DNA of 64,000 bases, from contig JANSWY010000004.1 of assembly GCA_024743255.1 (NCBI GenBank), positions 1-64,000 of the forward strand, written 5' to 3'. Position 1 is the stretch's first letter; each line of letters starts with the position of its first letter. Below the pieces are notes generated by a model. That model worked only from the letters and a program-made list of their open reading frames with translations, made no database searches and was not told the origin of the DNA. The position numbers were made by a program, and so were the translations under genes. This DNA is from a bacterium. Its GTDB lineage: Bacteria; Bacteroidota; Bacteroidia; Cytophagales; Cyclobacteriaceae. Below, piece after piece: positions 28,392 to 33,469 of this stretch.

Positions 28392-31028
28392 TTATTCATC
28401 TTTCAAATACCTAACAGGATTAGACCCAGCAGCTTTCAGAGATTGGTAACCTACTGTTAGGATAACAAGTCCTAACACTGCGATCAATGTAATTCCGAAA
28501 GTAATCCATGAAAGTCCAATTCTGTAGTGGAAGGATTCCAGCCAATCATTGGTGAAATAAATTACAAAAGGTATTGATAAAGCAAATGCGATTAATACCC
28601 ATTTGGCAAAGTCTTTAATGATGAGTCTTAAGACTTCATTGATTTCAGCACCCAATACCTTCCTGATACTGATTTCTTTTCTTCTCTTCTCAATAATGAA
28701 AAGGGTCAACCCGTAAAGCCCCAGGCATGCTACAATGATTGATAGTACGGAAAATAATGAAACCATTCCGAGGTATCTGTTCTCTGCTTCATACATGTCT
28801 TTGATTTCATCATCCATAAATTGGAAACTAAAGTCAGCAGTAGATCCCAGGTCATTCCATAGTGTTTCTATTTCACCCAGTTTAGTTTTGAGATCTGTCA
28901 TATCCATCTTCAGTGTGATGAAACGGTGGACCGGATTGGTTGCTCGTCTGTGGAATACAATGATTGGTGCAATTTCCTGTTCCAGAGACTCATAGTTAAA
29001 GTCTTCAACCACTCCAACAACATTCACCGCAAAATCTCCAAACATCAGGACATTCTGATTGGCAGGATCAAAATCAAATGCTTTCATTGCCGCCTCATTC
29101 AATACTGCTGAAGTTCTCTGATCACCTTGAGTATCATCCAGGAAGTTCTGTCCGTATTTGAATGGGATATTAAAGGTGTTGAAGAAATTCCCATCAACAA
29201 ATGTGTATCTCATCCTCATTGGATCACCAGTCCAGCCTTCGGGCTCAACAAAAGTAAATGATCTGGCCCAGGAGGTAGGTATCGATCTACTTGCTGTAAC
29301 CTCCTTGACATATGAAAGTTCCTTCAATTCATTCTTCAAAGTATTCAACCGCACAAGCCCGGCTTCCTGATCAACAAAATCACTTCTTGATCCAATTACG
29401 GTTACAATTCCTTCACTATTGAATCCCATCCCTTTTGTAGACATATATTGGATTTGATTCCGAATGAAAATAGTAGTTGTGATCAGGAATAAAGCGATTG
29501 CAAACTGTAAAACGACCAGGGCATTTCGAAATGAAATTGAACCACCAAACCCCATTTTATGACGGATTGCATCAATGGCTTTTATAGAAGATAAATAGAA
29601 CGCAGGGTAGCTACCACTCAGGAATCCCATAATCACTGTGAGTCCAATGATTCCTGATAACAATTCAAGCCATGAATAATGTTGTAACGAAAGCTCCAGA
29701 TCAAAGAATGTATTAAAGTAGGGGAGTGCTAGTACAACTAAGGCTGCTCCCAAAATTGCGGCGATGAATGATGAGACAAAGGCTTCAGTAATGAATTGAG
29801 AACGAAGTTGACCCTTAAAAGCTCCCAGCACCTTTCTAAGTCCAATTTCCTTGGTTCTTTGTGAGGCCTGAGCAGTCGATAGGTTCATGAAGTTGATTGT
29901 CGCAATGATCAAGATTCCAATTCCTATCATCAACAATGTCTTGGCATCCTGTTTCCTTCCCAGGAAAGTATCATAGTAATCATCAAGAGGGAGAAGCCTG
30001 AAAGTAGTATTGTTTTTTACATCGGCATCCCAAATGCTTTCAATAAGATCAGGAAACGAAGCTTCTAGCTCTCTCGCGTGTTGCGGAGATTGAAGGAGCA
30101 CATAAGTTTCTATAAACGAACTTCCCCATTCATTTGCCAATTCTTCAAATGCAGGAATAGCCTGAGGTTGCACAATCATTTCTGGTCTCAGGGAAACATT
30201 GATGTTGTAATCATCCAGAATAGCACTTACCTGAAAACGTAATGTAGTATCCTCTTCAGGAATATATATTTCCATCGATTCACCAATGGCATTATCGGTT
30301 CGAAAGTACTTTTCTGAAAGTTCAGCACTAATTACTATAGAATTAACTGATTCGAACATTCTATTTTCATTTCCATACTTCAGGGGATAGGTAAAAATGT
30401 TAAAGAAGTCCTGATCTGTGTAGGTTATAGTTTCTTCCAGGTATCTATTATTTTGAATGACCATTGCCCCGGTCTCATAGAACCTTGCCGAACTTTTAAC
30501 TTGAGTATAGTCCGTTTTGAGGCGGTCAGCTAAAGGCACCCAGGTGTCATATGTTGGTTGTACGCCATTTGGAGTGATTCTCTCTTTATACACCAGGTAT
30601 ATATTATCCTTGTTGATGTGCTGATTGTCGTGATTTAGGATGAAGAAAGAATATAAGGCTATCAGTAGAAAAGCAGCAGCTCCCAGAGAAAGTCCGAAGA
30701 TGTTTATAAAAGAAACAGACTTTCTTTTGAGCATACTTCTAAACGCGATTTTGATGTAATTCCTGTAGATCATAGTATTCAACGAAAAATGGTGAATTGA
30801 TTTCAGGTTTCCTGGTCTCAACGATTTCAAAGTCTCCCATAAGAACCACCTCTTAGCTTTTGGTACTGACTTGGTATCTACACGCCAGTAATAAGCCTCA
30901 TGAAGGTCTCCAATAATCTCATCAACATAATCCGTTCTGCACAAATAAGTTAGGATCTTATCAGGCCATTTTGGAGGTTGTGGAGGATCACTTTTTGAAA
31001 CATTAAGATCAGAGTTTTCTGATATCAT
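28392..31028 (-). CDS. MacB/FtsX-like ABC transporter permease with N-terminal prefix domain
   Basis: 878 residues from the ATG at 31028; a second ATG 33 bases further upstream is also in frame, and both directly follow an operator-like repeat. A cytoplasmic prefix (about 1-80: 'CRTDYVDEIIGDLHEAYYWR') precedes a MacB-type array: TM, a periplasmic MacB_PCD domain, three FtsX-type membrane helices, a second periplasmic domain and three more helices ending with GSNPVRYLK. The paired 'KRTKEIGLRKVLGA' and 'RRKEISIRKVLGA' motifs mark the two halves. The ATPase subunit is not nearby. Such permeases move peptides, lipoproteins or antibiotics in a mechanotransmission mode. Confidence 0.9.
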   Translation of the reverse strand: MISENSDLNVSKSDPPQPPKWPDKILTYLCRTDYVDEIIGDLHEAYYWRVDTKSVPKAKRWFLWETLKSLRPGNLKSIHHFSLNTMIYRNYIKIAFRSMLKRKSVSFINIFGLSLGAAAFLLIALYSFFILNHDNQHINKDNIYLVYKERITPNGVQPTYDTWVPLADRLKTDYTQVKSSARFYETGAMVIQNNRYLEETITYTDQDFFNIFTYPLKYGNENRMFESVNSIVISAELSEKYFRTDNAIGESMEIYIPEEDTTLRFQVSAILDDYNINVSLRPEMIVQPQAIPAFEELANEWGSSFIETYVLLQSPQHARELEASFPDLIESIWDADVKNNTTFRLLPLDDYYDTFLGRKQDAKTLLMIGIGILIIATINFMNLSTAQASQRTKEIGLRKVLGAFKGQLRSQFITEAFVSSFIAAILGAALVVLALPYFNTFFDLELSLQHYSWLELLSGIIGLTVIMGFLSGSYPAFYLSSIKAIDAIRHKMGFGGSISFRNALVVLQFAIALFLITTTIFIRNQIQYMSTKGMGFNSEGIVTVIGSRSDFVDQEAGLVRLNTLKNELKELSYVKEVTASRSIPTSWARSFTFVEPEGWTGDPMRMRYTFVDGNFFNTFNIPFKYGQNFLDDTQGDQRTSAVLNEAAMKAFDFDPANQNVLMFGDFAVNVVGVVEDFNYESLEQEIAPIIVFHRRATNPVHRFITLKMDMTDLKTKLGEIETLWNDLGSTADFSFQFMDDEIKDMYEAENRYLGMVSLFSVLSIIVACLGLYGLTLFIIEKRRKEISIRKVLGAEINEVLRLIIKDFAKWVLIAFALSIPFVIYFTNDWLESFHYRIGLSWITFGITLIAVLGLVILTVGYQSLKAAGSNPVRYLKDE

Positions 31029-31114
31029 TAATTTTTGTTTAACTAATCTACGGTATATCATTAGTTTTTGTTTAACTAATCAAAAATAATATGATTAATT
31101 TTTGTTTAACTAAT
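31027..31114 (-). promoter_or_regulatory. Promoter with three palindromic operator-like repeats
   Basis: Three 21-bp copies of ATTA(A/G)TTTTTGTTTAACTAAT lie at 31027-31047, 31060-31080 and 31094-31114. The second copy is a perfect palindrome with 7-bp arms ATTAGTT/AACTAAT around a 7-bp spacer; spacing is 33 and 34 bp, three helical turns. On the minus strand TATTTTTG (TAnnTTTG -7 element, 31088-31081) lies between copies two and three. A repressor binding all three would cover the promoter and the start codons of the permease gene. Confidence 0.65.
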
Positions 31115-31630
31115 GCTGAACTTGCTTTTAAAGGAGAATCTATAAATATGTTTTCAGGAAATCAAGAATTGTGAATAGGGAAGAGTTAAAATAAAAAAAC
31201 ACCACGATAGACGTGATGTTTTTTGCTTGGCTTTGTGTTAGATAGTTTCAGTTAAAGCGGAAGTTGGGGGTAAATTAATTAAAATTTCAGTATCCAGTGA
31301 CTGTCAAACTCCTGCATTTGACGAGTCACTTTCAACTTTAATTGATTCTTAATTTCCAACTAATCTAAATCTTTCATTTCCAGTAAATCAACTGGAATTC
31401 ATTATCAAAAACTACAGCTATAATAAAAATACAATAATGAAGAAATCAGATAGATTTTAGTCGCATAACTTAGATTAATATTTTGATATATAATAAAACA
31501 GATGAACAATGGTAATTCCTATACAAATTCTATTAAGAATTGTGGTTTTTTGAGTTTGGTTTTTTACATACTAGGAATTGATTGGAGTATCTGGTAAATT
31601 TCTCTTATCTATCATTAATCAAATAATAGC
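31115..31630. other. Intergenic region upstream of the VOC gene
   Basis: About 500 AT-rich bases between the permease operator and a rightward VOC gene. Apart from one terminator-like hairpin (listed separately) I see no gene, no repeat and no clear promoter. Confidence 0.5.
31194..31224. terminator. Orphan terminator-like hairpin
   Basis: AAAAAACACCACG (31194-31206) and CGTGATGTTTTTT (31212-31224) form a 13-bp stem with one C-A mismatch on the plus strand (G-U on the minus strand) and a 5-nt loop, with A and T tracts on its two sides. It works as a terminator in either direction, but no annotated gene is transcribed into it at close range. Confidence 0.55.
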
Positions 31631-32002
31631 ATGAAATTAGGAGCTTTTTCAGTTAGTTTGAATGTAAAGGATTTATCAGCATCTAAGGCTTTTTATGAGC
31701 ATCTGGGGTTCAGTGTATTTGGAGGAGATATGGAGCAGAATTACCTGATTATGAAGAATGGAGAAACCATCATAGGTCTGTTTCAGGGTATGTTTGAAAA
31801 TAATATTCTGACCTTCAATCCCGGTTGGGACCAAAATGCTCAAAACGTGGAAGGTTTTACAGATGTACGAGAAATTCAAAAACATATTAAGAGCAAAGGA
31901 ATATCAGTGGATCCTGAAGCAGATGAGTCTGGATCTGGCCCTGCAAGTATCATGATTACTGATCCGGATGGGAATACCATATTGATTGATCAGCACGTTT
32001 AG
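31631..32002 (+). CDS. VOC (glyoxalase/bleomycin-resistance fold) protein
   Basis: 123 residues. Pattern of the vicinal oxygen chelate fold: '[26 protein letters not shown]' at the start, and at the end a '[18 protein letters not shown]' strand with the metal-ligand Glu position of glyoxalases replaced by Asp (ILID). A small lyase/dioxygenase-like or binding protein; substrate unknown. It precedes a lipoprotein gene by 5 bases on the same strand. Confidence 0.85.
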
Positions 32003-32007
32003 TTATC

Positions 32008-32526
32008 ATGCGATATCATAAATCATTTGTCTTAATATGGGTGGCATATATGTCGTCATGTGTACCATATAAGCCACAATCAGTCAGCCAGGAACGTATC
32101 GATGTAGCTGTTAAGGGTTCAGTCATTATCAATAAGGATAATTATGAAGCTTTAAGGAAGAACGAACTTTATCTACAGTGTCAATCAATGAATACTAATA
32201 ATACGTTGGAAGAGATTTTAATTGATAATGCAGATGTCGAAATTGTAGGAGATCAAATGATTATAGCCACTCAGCATGATCGTAGGTGGGAGTATGTTTA
32301 TTTTCTTAATTGGGATGGGGAATTTGTAATAGATAAGAAAGGAAGACACATTGCAAATGTGATTGTTTCGAAGGAATTAATTAAGAAACCGGAGGGTGCT
32401 CATTCCAAAGTTTATCACCAGATCAACTATGATATTAAATTTGATCTTTCAGTTTTAAGGAGTACTCGTACAACTGAAGTTTTCCTGAAGTTTTTTAGTA
32501 GGAAGATTAGAGTCTATCGGTATTAG
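32008..32526 (+). CDS. Lipoprotein of unknown function
   Basis: 172 residues with a lipoprotein signal (hydrophobic SFVLIWVAYMSSC, lipobox MSSC at about residues 15-18). The mature protein is a compact, mostly beta domain with many basic and aromatic residues. No family recognised. It begins 5 bases after the VOC gene and its 3' end overlaps the convergent RES toxin gene by 4 bases. Confidence 0.5.
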   Translation: MRYHKSFVLIWVAYMSSCVPYKPQSVSQERIDVAVKGSVIINKDNYEALRKNELYLQCQSMNTNNTLEEILIDNADVEIVGDQMIIATQHDRRWEYVYFLNWDGEFVIDKKGRHIANVIVSKELIKKPEGAHSKVYHQINYDIKFDLSVLRSTRTTEVFLKFFSRKIRVYRY

Positions 32527-32987
32527 TTACCTTTCAACCTCCTATCAAAGTAAGCCACATCAACTTCAACCTCCTTTACATATTTATCAAAATCCTTAAA
32601 ATCAGGAAATAGCAGAAAGTTCTTCTCTCTCCAGGATTGAACAGATGGCACAATTGCACCAACAAATAATTTTGAGTCAATCAAATTCTGTGTCATTTGT
32701 GCTAAGTAGGAGGGGGCTGGGTAATTGAACCAATCTTCTTTGAGGTCTGTAACTTCAATTCTAGCCATTGGTGCATCCTCAGCTATGTCAATAACTTTAA
32801 GAATACAGTCCTCAGGCAAATACTGTCCAGAGTTTGCTAAGACCTCAAGTTTTGCCAATGCTATATTTTCAGAGCAATAGACTACCCACGTACCTTTTGC
32901 GTGCCATCTTCCAGACACATAAAGCGATCCACGAGGAGGAAATACATCTTTGTATTTTGACTTCTCTATCCGGTAAACCTGCATCAA
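32523..32987 (-). CDS. RES-domain toxin (NAD+ phosphorylase family)
   Basis: 154 residues. The RES core is present: SGRWHAKGTWVVYCSE with Arg27, ALAKLEVLAN with Glu48, and GAIVPSVQSW with Ser115, the three residues that name the family. Characterised RES toxins deplete NAD+ by phosphorolysis or hydrolysis. The gene starts 4 bases inside the end of the Xre-type antitoxin gene (ATGA overlap), so the two are translationally coupled as a type II toxin-antitoxin module. Confidence 0.9.
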   Translation of the reverse strand: MMQVYRIEKSKYKDVFPPRGSLYVSGRWHAKGTWVVYCSENIALAKLEVLANSGQYLPEDCILKVIDIAEDAPMARIEVTDLKEDWFNYPAPSYLAQMTQNLIDSKLFVGAIVPSVQSWREKNFLLFPDFKDFDKYVKEVEVDVAYFDRRLKGN

Positions 32988-33469
32988 CCGTAAACATTGT
33001 ATTCTATCCTGGAAATAGCTTCATCTACTGCGTGTCTGCCAGTTTCGGTTTTGAGTAACTCGATAGGTTTTTGATCACCAAGATTAATCACTCTCGAATC
33101 CAGCCAATCGTCAAAGTCCTCTTTGTTACCTCCAAATGCTTCTACACCCTTTTCGTAGATTTTTAGGATAGTTGCTAATCTGTCAGAAGTGGAAGGTTCT
33201 AATGTTTTCTGCTCCTTGGTTCTGTAAAATGTAGACTTGCTGATATTGAGTAAATCGAGCAAAGTAGGAATTGTGAGACCTGTGAGTCCTGGGATCACGG
33301 TTAAAATTGATCCACTAATGGTAAGCTCTCCAACACCATCATATTCGATTAGACTTTTAAATTCACTTTTCATCTTCCGGGACTTTGCAATTGATTGAAA
33401 AGAGAATTTTTCCCTTGTTCTTTCAAACGAAAGGTCCTGATAACTTTGGATATTTTTGAGTGGTTCCAT
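32984..33469 (-). CDS. Xre/MbcA/ParS-type antitoxin
   Basis: 161 residues. An N-terminal helical region with a helix-turn-helix ('PGLTGLTIPTLLDLLNISKSTFYRTKEQ') is followed by the DUF2384/MbcA-ParS toxin-binding helices (about 90-160: 'TSDRLATILKIYEKGVEAFGGNKEDFDDWLDS'). It is the antitoxin of the RES toxin encoded next and overlaps it by 4 bases. Autorepression is the usual regulation of such modules. Confidence 0.9.
   Translation of the reverse strand: MEPLKNIQSYQDLSFERTREKFSFQSIAKSRKMKSEFKSLIEYDGVGELTISGSILTVIPGLTGLTIPTLLDLLNISKSTFYRTKEQKTLEPSTSDRLATILKIYEKGVEAFGGNKEDFDDWLDSRVINLGDQKPIELLKTETGRHAVDEAISRIEYNVYG

Follow-up and report, generated by a model that had tools for sequence, protein, structure and literature searches.

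The window, i.e. the whole 64-kb stretch of DNA analysed here, carries on its minus strand a gene for an FtsX/MacB-like ABC permease (28392..31028, with an alternative start at 31061). The product bears permease prefix domain 2 (NF038404; 30801..30977, minus strand), a domain found together with a neighbouring padR gene, at 54.3 bits against a cut-off of 35. The permease has two stretches each of the MacB_PCD and FtsX domains, in common with MacB/FtsX ABC permeases, but the domain search found no ATPase domain in the protein. It resembles the ADOP-type permeases (TIGR03434) at a score of 235.8, far below the cut-off of 622.3, and the PadR proteins of its relatives (below) resemble padR_acidobact (TIGR03433) at 30.2, far below the cut-off of 101.8; set against the ADOP-type pairing of permease and PadR, the window member has no padR alongside. 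A RES/Xre toxin-antitoxin pair lies at 32523-33469 on the same strand (NCBIfam: 91 versus 90 bits for the antitoxin, 102.6 versus 110 for the toxin).

Three copies of a 21-bp site stand on the minus strand at the permease start, all fitting the pattern ATTARTTTTTGTTTAACTAAT with 0 mismatches. Site 1 (31027..31047) is nearest the permease, has the core TTAAACAAAAATTAATGATAT (31042-31022) and ends on the AT of the permease ATG; site 2 (31060..31080) has the core TTAAACAAAAACTAATGATAT and forms a perfect palindrome whose arms are 7 bp long; site 3 lies at 31094..31114. The start-to-start spacings are 33 and 34 bp, and the repeat unit with its flanks is 27 nt long, its copies being 93-96% identical to the first. 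The palindromes of sites 1 and 3 each have one mismatched pair. Between sites 3 and 2 is TATTTTTG (31081..31088, minus strand), which fits the Bacteroidota -7 box TAnnTTTG at every defined position. The permease ATG at 31028 overlaps the end of site 1, and the alternative ATG at 31061 overlaps the end of site 2. An earlier note on this DNA had described three such sites at 33-34 bp spacing, the middle one a perfect palindrome, with a TAnnTTTG element between sites 2 and 3 and with sites 1 and 2 abutting two candidate starts, and in all of this it was exact. A terminator-like hairpin (31194..31224, minus strand) lies upstream of the operator region; it is intergenic, with no obvious end of a minus-strand gene there.

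The earlier note had named random occurrence of the motif in AT-rich DNA as a refutation, and such occurrence is not seen. The window has three matches to ATTARTTTTTGTTTAACTAAT versus 0.05 expected, and three or more appeared in not one of 100 shuffles. Across the whole 6.6-Mb genome, the 21-bp pattern at 0-2 mismatches is found only at the three window sites (a reversed-pattern control gave 2), and 3 mismatches bring in three more places (3 for the control at up to 3 mismatches). These shuffles, together with conservation in relatives, rule out a chance repeat or satellite.

Orthologs of the permease were sought at E<=1e-170 in 390 family genomes, themselves part of a larger group; 31 genomes gave a match, the window's own included, and none was found at this threshold in the congener G001. 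The ten closest orthologs found are 48-62% identical to the window permease, and all ten have a padR directly upstream, with PadR proteins 71-100% identical to the query PadR of G206; for L076, a prefix-bearing ortholog at greater distance, the PadR stands at 38%. The window keeps two parts of this module, i.e. prefix domain 2 and the paired TTAAACA-type operators (three versus two in relatives), and has no padR directly upstream of the permease. Nor was a PadR-like stretch found anywhere in its 64 kb (open stretches of at least 25 aa, six frames, E<=1), and a search for a padR remnant found none; the residues DLNVS at the permease N-terminus (KLNFS in several relatives) were considered as the last codons of padR and are too short to claim.

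Each of the ten padR genes is preceded by two copies of TTAAACANNNRTTAA, at 53-54 and 19 nt (22 in G206) from its start, and in four of the ten (G182, G221, G201 and G122) at least one copy departs from TTAAACAAAAATTAA. By alignment, the relatives' sites A and B are window sites 2 and 1, and window site 3 is extra. The match to G206 runs to within one base of the padR start codon, and there the window enters the permease directly. Since the operators of the orthologs' padR genes align with the window, and since its 64 kb hold no PadR, this would be the operator region of a vanished padR; judged by sequence comparison, then, the window's is the operator region inherited from a padR-permease operon with padR gone (in one assembly, without reads). 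The earlier note had invoked an unidentified regulator with no PadR gene adjacent. The second part stands locally, and the absence of padR is itself the anomaly; as to the first, the regulator can now be assigned to the PadR class.

Conservation of the core extends across the family. At no more than one mismatch, TTAAACAAAAATTAATNATAT occurs at 26 places in 18 of 295 family genomes: three in the window, 18 before a padR and five without a PadR seen nearby, such that 18 of the 23 places outside the window stand before a padR. Independently of the pattern, 19 foreign PadR genes were picked by protein similarity alone from 20 chosen genomes, and at least one core site was present in 18 of the 19 promoters, the exception (L194) belonging to the most distant PadR (46%). 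Seventeen promoters were aligned (the 19 minus L194 and the near-duplicates L184 and L185, plus L217 from the pattern search), giving 34 sites, of which one, site B of the second PadR of G122, is weak. Pair spacing in these relatives is 28-35 bp, and 34 bp in 14 of the 17; site A is followed by a TTCGTAT-like element, relative to which the ACCGTAG in the window's spacer of sites 2 and 1 (31048..31059, minus strand) is degenerate. The core is kept in relatives and the palindromic arms are not: the palindrome noted earlier is present in site 2, but the conserved element is TTAAACANNNRTTAATNWWAT on the minus strand, and the C at core position 11 (counting from 0) that makes site 2 perfectly palindromic is T in 33 of the relatives' 34 sites. 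All 21 nt of the core found in five relatives, with permeases 58-62% identical to the window's, are retained in sites 1 and 3. Twelve loci with 21-mer matches in relatives were inspected; at four (L005, L010, L011 and L022) the match is inside a long frame filling most of the locus, and at L017 inside a 150-aa frame, the informative locus being that of the ortholog in G036.

Taken as a whole, these comparisons make the three repeats strong candidate operators of the PadR class. The earlier note's prediction of operators controlling the permease is well supported, the same core standing before padR in 10/10 closest orthologs and in further PadR promoters. In the portion available to us, PMC3506622 reports the PadR operator as an ATGT/ACAT repeat with an 8-10 bp spacer, and from this the present operator differs, being TTAAACANNNRTTAATNWWAT, usually paired 34 bp apart; by inspection, ATGT-N8/10-ACAT in that form is absent from the window sites and from the consensus of the relatives' 34 sites. 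The portions of the literature available to us hold no description of these PadR operators or of padR-less permease sets.

The prefix domain tracks the presence of padR. Among 29 family orthologs (the window and G375 left out), padR accompanies all 11 prefix-bearing permeases and none of the 18 prefix-less ones; in loci from named genomes the counts are 11/16 and 1/57, from 73 usable of 80 loci, with one of the 16 (L274) also in the family set. The 80 loci came from a contig search of named genomes with alignment, in which one was close, L274 (62%), which coincides with a known relative; an earlier contig search of named genomes matched 33 stretches, with no relative among them. The window permease has kept its prefix domain with no padR next to it, which is consistent with a regulator encoded at another locus.

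The window sites belong to a large PadR-permease system in this genome. Its prefix-domain permease genes number 44 (in 45 rows, one broken gene taking up two), and we compared them with 38 PadRs by matching coordinates by hand. A padR lies directly upstream of 36 of the permeases, five lie in tandem behind another permease (read at sequence level for two of them), and three are alone, namely the window's, C28:45007 and C20:1668. Conversely, a single PadR of the 38, on contig 96 (C96), was seen without a permease; C20:12488 runs off its contig end. There are 37 full-length PadR paralogs in this one genome (L121-L150, L228-L235), and six more PF03551 proteins, of another type, lie outside the 38.

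Among the 37 padR promoters, 26 have a repeat pair above the 95% shuffle level (six shuffles each), with repeats 22-44 bp apart before the start codon; the C96 promoter is among the other 11. Some close paralogs have a common repeat sequence (L124/L129; L132/L141/L125), and the others mostly differ. Taken over all pairs, PadR similarity and promoter similarity are uncorrelated (Mantel rho 0.003), but between nearest PadRs the promoters are unusually alike, to a degree that 0/2000 permutations equalled. At 50-55% identity, the range of C96 and the lost repressor's ortholog (below), PadRs of this genome have only modest promoter sequence in common, which speaks against the trans link: a promoter score of at least 14 is reached by 17/75 such pairs versus 35/267 at 45-50%. 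Our reading is that operators may diverge fast after duplication and then turn private.

Two PadRs of the genome are nearest to the ortholog of the lost one, both at 54%: C96:799-1125 and C55:18912 (E 2.1e-31 and 2.7e-31). C55:18912 has its own permease. The C96 gene lies beside a probable rsmG and is followed by an unrelated reading frame and by no permease, whereas its relatives in G065 (68%) and in G224, G206, G251 and G273 (59-63%) are each followed by one; nothing close to the partner permease of G065 is present in this genome, the best match being at 30%. The C96 promoter contains TTAAACAAATGTTAATTATATTCG. The operator-class pattern TTAAACAWWWRYTAATNATA has four exact matches in the whole genome, which are the three window sites and C96:1159-1178, in the C96 padR promoter; there are none at 1 mismatch, and the 17 at 2 mismatches are near the control level of 14. 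A large regulon is thus not seen; a looser 19-mer pattern gave 41 matches versus 68 in its control.

TTAAACAWWWRYTAATNATA was chosen after seeing the window and C96 sites, and an operator matrix built on 25 sites from other genomes only serves as the independent test. Over the 38 padR promoters, it ranks C96 first at 28.1 bits, C55 second at 17.9 and C20:12488 third at 12.3; the highest score among 7600 single-base shuffles was 17.2. In the recognition-helix region, compared with that of the lost repressor across the genome's 37 PadRs, C96 matches at 15/17 positions, C55 at 13 and the next at 11, and in a tree C96 is the only one of the 37 to fall inside the clade of the operator's PadRs (support 0.99). 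The C96 promoter has one clear site only and no significant repeat pair. We regard the C96 PadR (G000:C96:799-1125) as the best candidate regulator of the permease. The partial PadR C20:12488 was rejected as the missing regulator despite its third rank, since it is cut off by the contig end and its sites look unlike those of the window (CCTAAACAAATGTTTAC).

The following history would account for these observations. In the ancestor, padR would have lain between the operators and the permease, and PadR, bound to two sites around its own promoter, would have kept the padR-permease operon silent in the absence of a releasing signal. Then padR would have been lost, apparently from about its start codon to the permease start, leaving the permease to be expressed directly from the operator region, with its start codon formed at the end of site 1. 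A third operator would now lie upstream, separated from site 2 by the perfect -7 box. In the part of PMC9723704 available to us, the TAnnTTTG -7 box sits at -12 to -5 relative to the transcription start, and such a position predicts a start near 31076, inside site 2. Sites flanking the promoter on both sides would block polymerase, presumably with one PadR dimer per site, on the model of LmrR and the PadR repressors of Listeria. With a degenerate element between sites 2 and 1, the site-promoter-site layout may be preserved by the third site after a shift of the promoter. The orphan C96 PadR, without a permease of its own, would most likely bind the window sites in trans and repress the permease. 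Control of this family type is described, in the portions of PMC5428041 and PMC6624303 available to us, for LmrR-lmrCD and for LftR, LltR and LstR, PadR proteins that repress a membrane-protein promoter along with their own gene; the window differs from these autorepressors in that padR is absent and the operators remain.

We consider it reasonably probable that these are PadR operators orphaned by padR loss and read in trans by the orphan C96 PadR, and continued use of the sites by this protein would be the best single hypothesis. A broader proposal, to which we give a little short of an even chance, is that two PadR-permease modules were each half-lost and that the leftover repressor and the leftover permease now form a rewired circuit via their common operator, amid about 36 pairs with private operator codes.

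Among the alternatives, an unlikely one, yet the best of them, is that the operators are relics: padR would have been lost recently, the sites would be unbound, the permease constitutive and the third copy a neutral tandem duplication. The lack of a regulator alongside the permease fits this, as does the departure of site 2 from consensus at a near-invariant position, and the near-identity of the 27-nt copies is compatible with recent duplication. However, drift would not keep the core of sites 1 and 3 unless the loss were very recent, and both the perfect -7 box flanked by sites 3 and 2 and the existence of an orphan PadR with a matching operator argue for sites in use.

We think it less probable still that the reader in trans is a PadR other than that of C96 (e.g. 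C92:10233 or C55:18912) or belongs to another regulator family. By crude ungapped similarity to the window, the C92:10233 promoter comes close behind that of C96 over 95 nt (18 versus 19) or ahead of it over 70 nt (18 versus 16, with 2/60 shuffles reaching 18), C55 is equally close in protein (54%) and second in the matrix scan, and the six further PF03551 proteins were compared only via the whole-genome pattern. Yet C92:10233 reaches only 0.3 bits by the operator matrix and 9/17 in the recognition-helix region, and both it and C55 have their own adjacent permease. Hardly credible is an RNA-level element in which the repeats form transcript hairpins masking the permease start: the 111-nt region does fold at -15.1 kcal/mol (z -2.75, with 3/200 shuffles as good), but relatives conserve the core and not the palindromic arms, and a search for known RNA elements in 30500-32000 found no Rfam family at gathering score.

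With control by the orphan C96 PadR as the favoured reading, the repeat, otherwise unexplained, yields one defined regulator and target open to experiment, and the case shows that a regulator now encoded elsewhere can be traced through its operator sequence. The 37 paralogous PadRs would let one ask how repressors stay insulated and how broken modules rewire; were the rewired-circuit proposal true, the genome would be a natural set of mutually insulated repressors, and the PadR set could be a source of such insulated repressor-operator pairs for use in Bacteroidota.

The two other lone permeases suggest that trans control may recur. Stretches at C28:45007 and C20:1668, chosen after seeing the sequence, match PadR promoters elsewhere better than all of 60 shuffles (60/60), with scores of 19 and 20. 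At these loci (L238, G000:C28, and L239, G000:C20) there is no adjacent padR, and the C20 stretch is close to the C97:51784 PadR promoter. At a further locus (L231, G000:C185:118448-118631), a padR is followed by a prefix-domain permease whose gene is broken inside that domain, with a TAG in one of its two rows.
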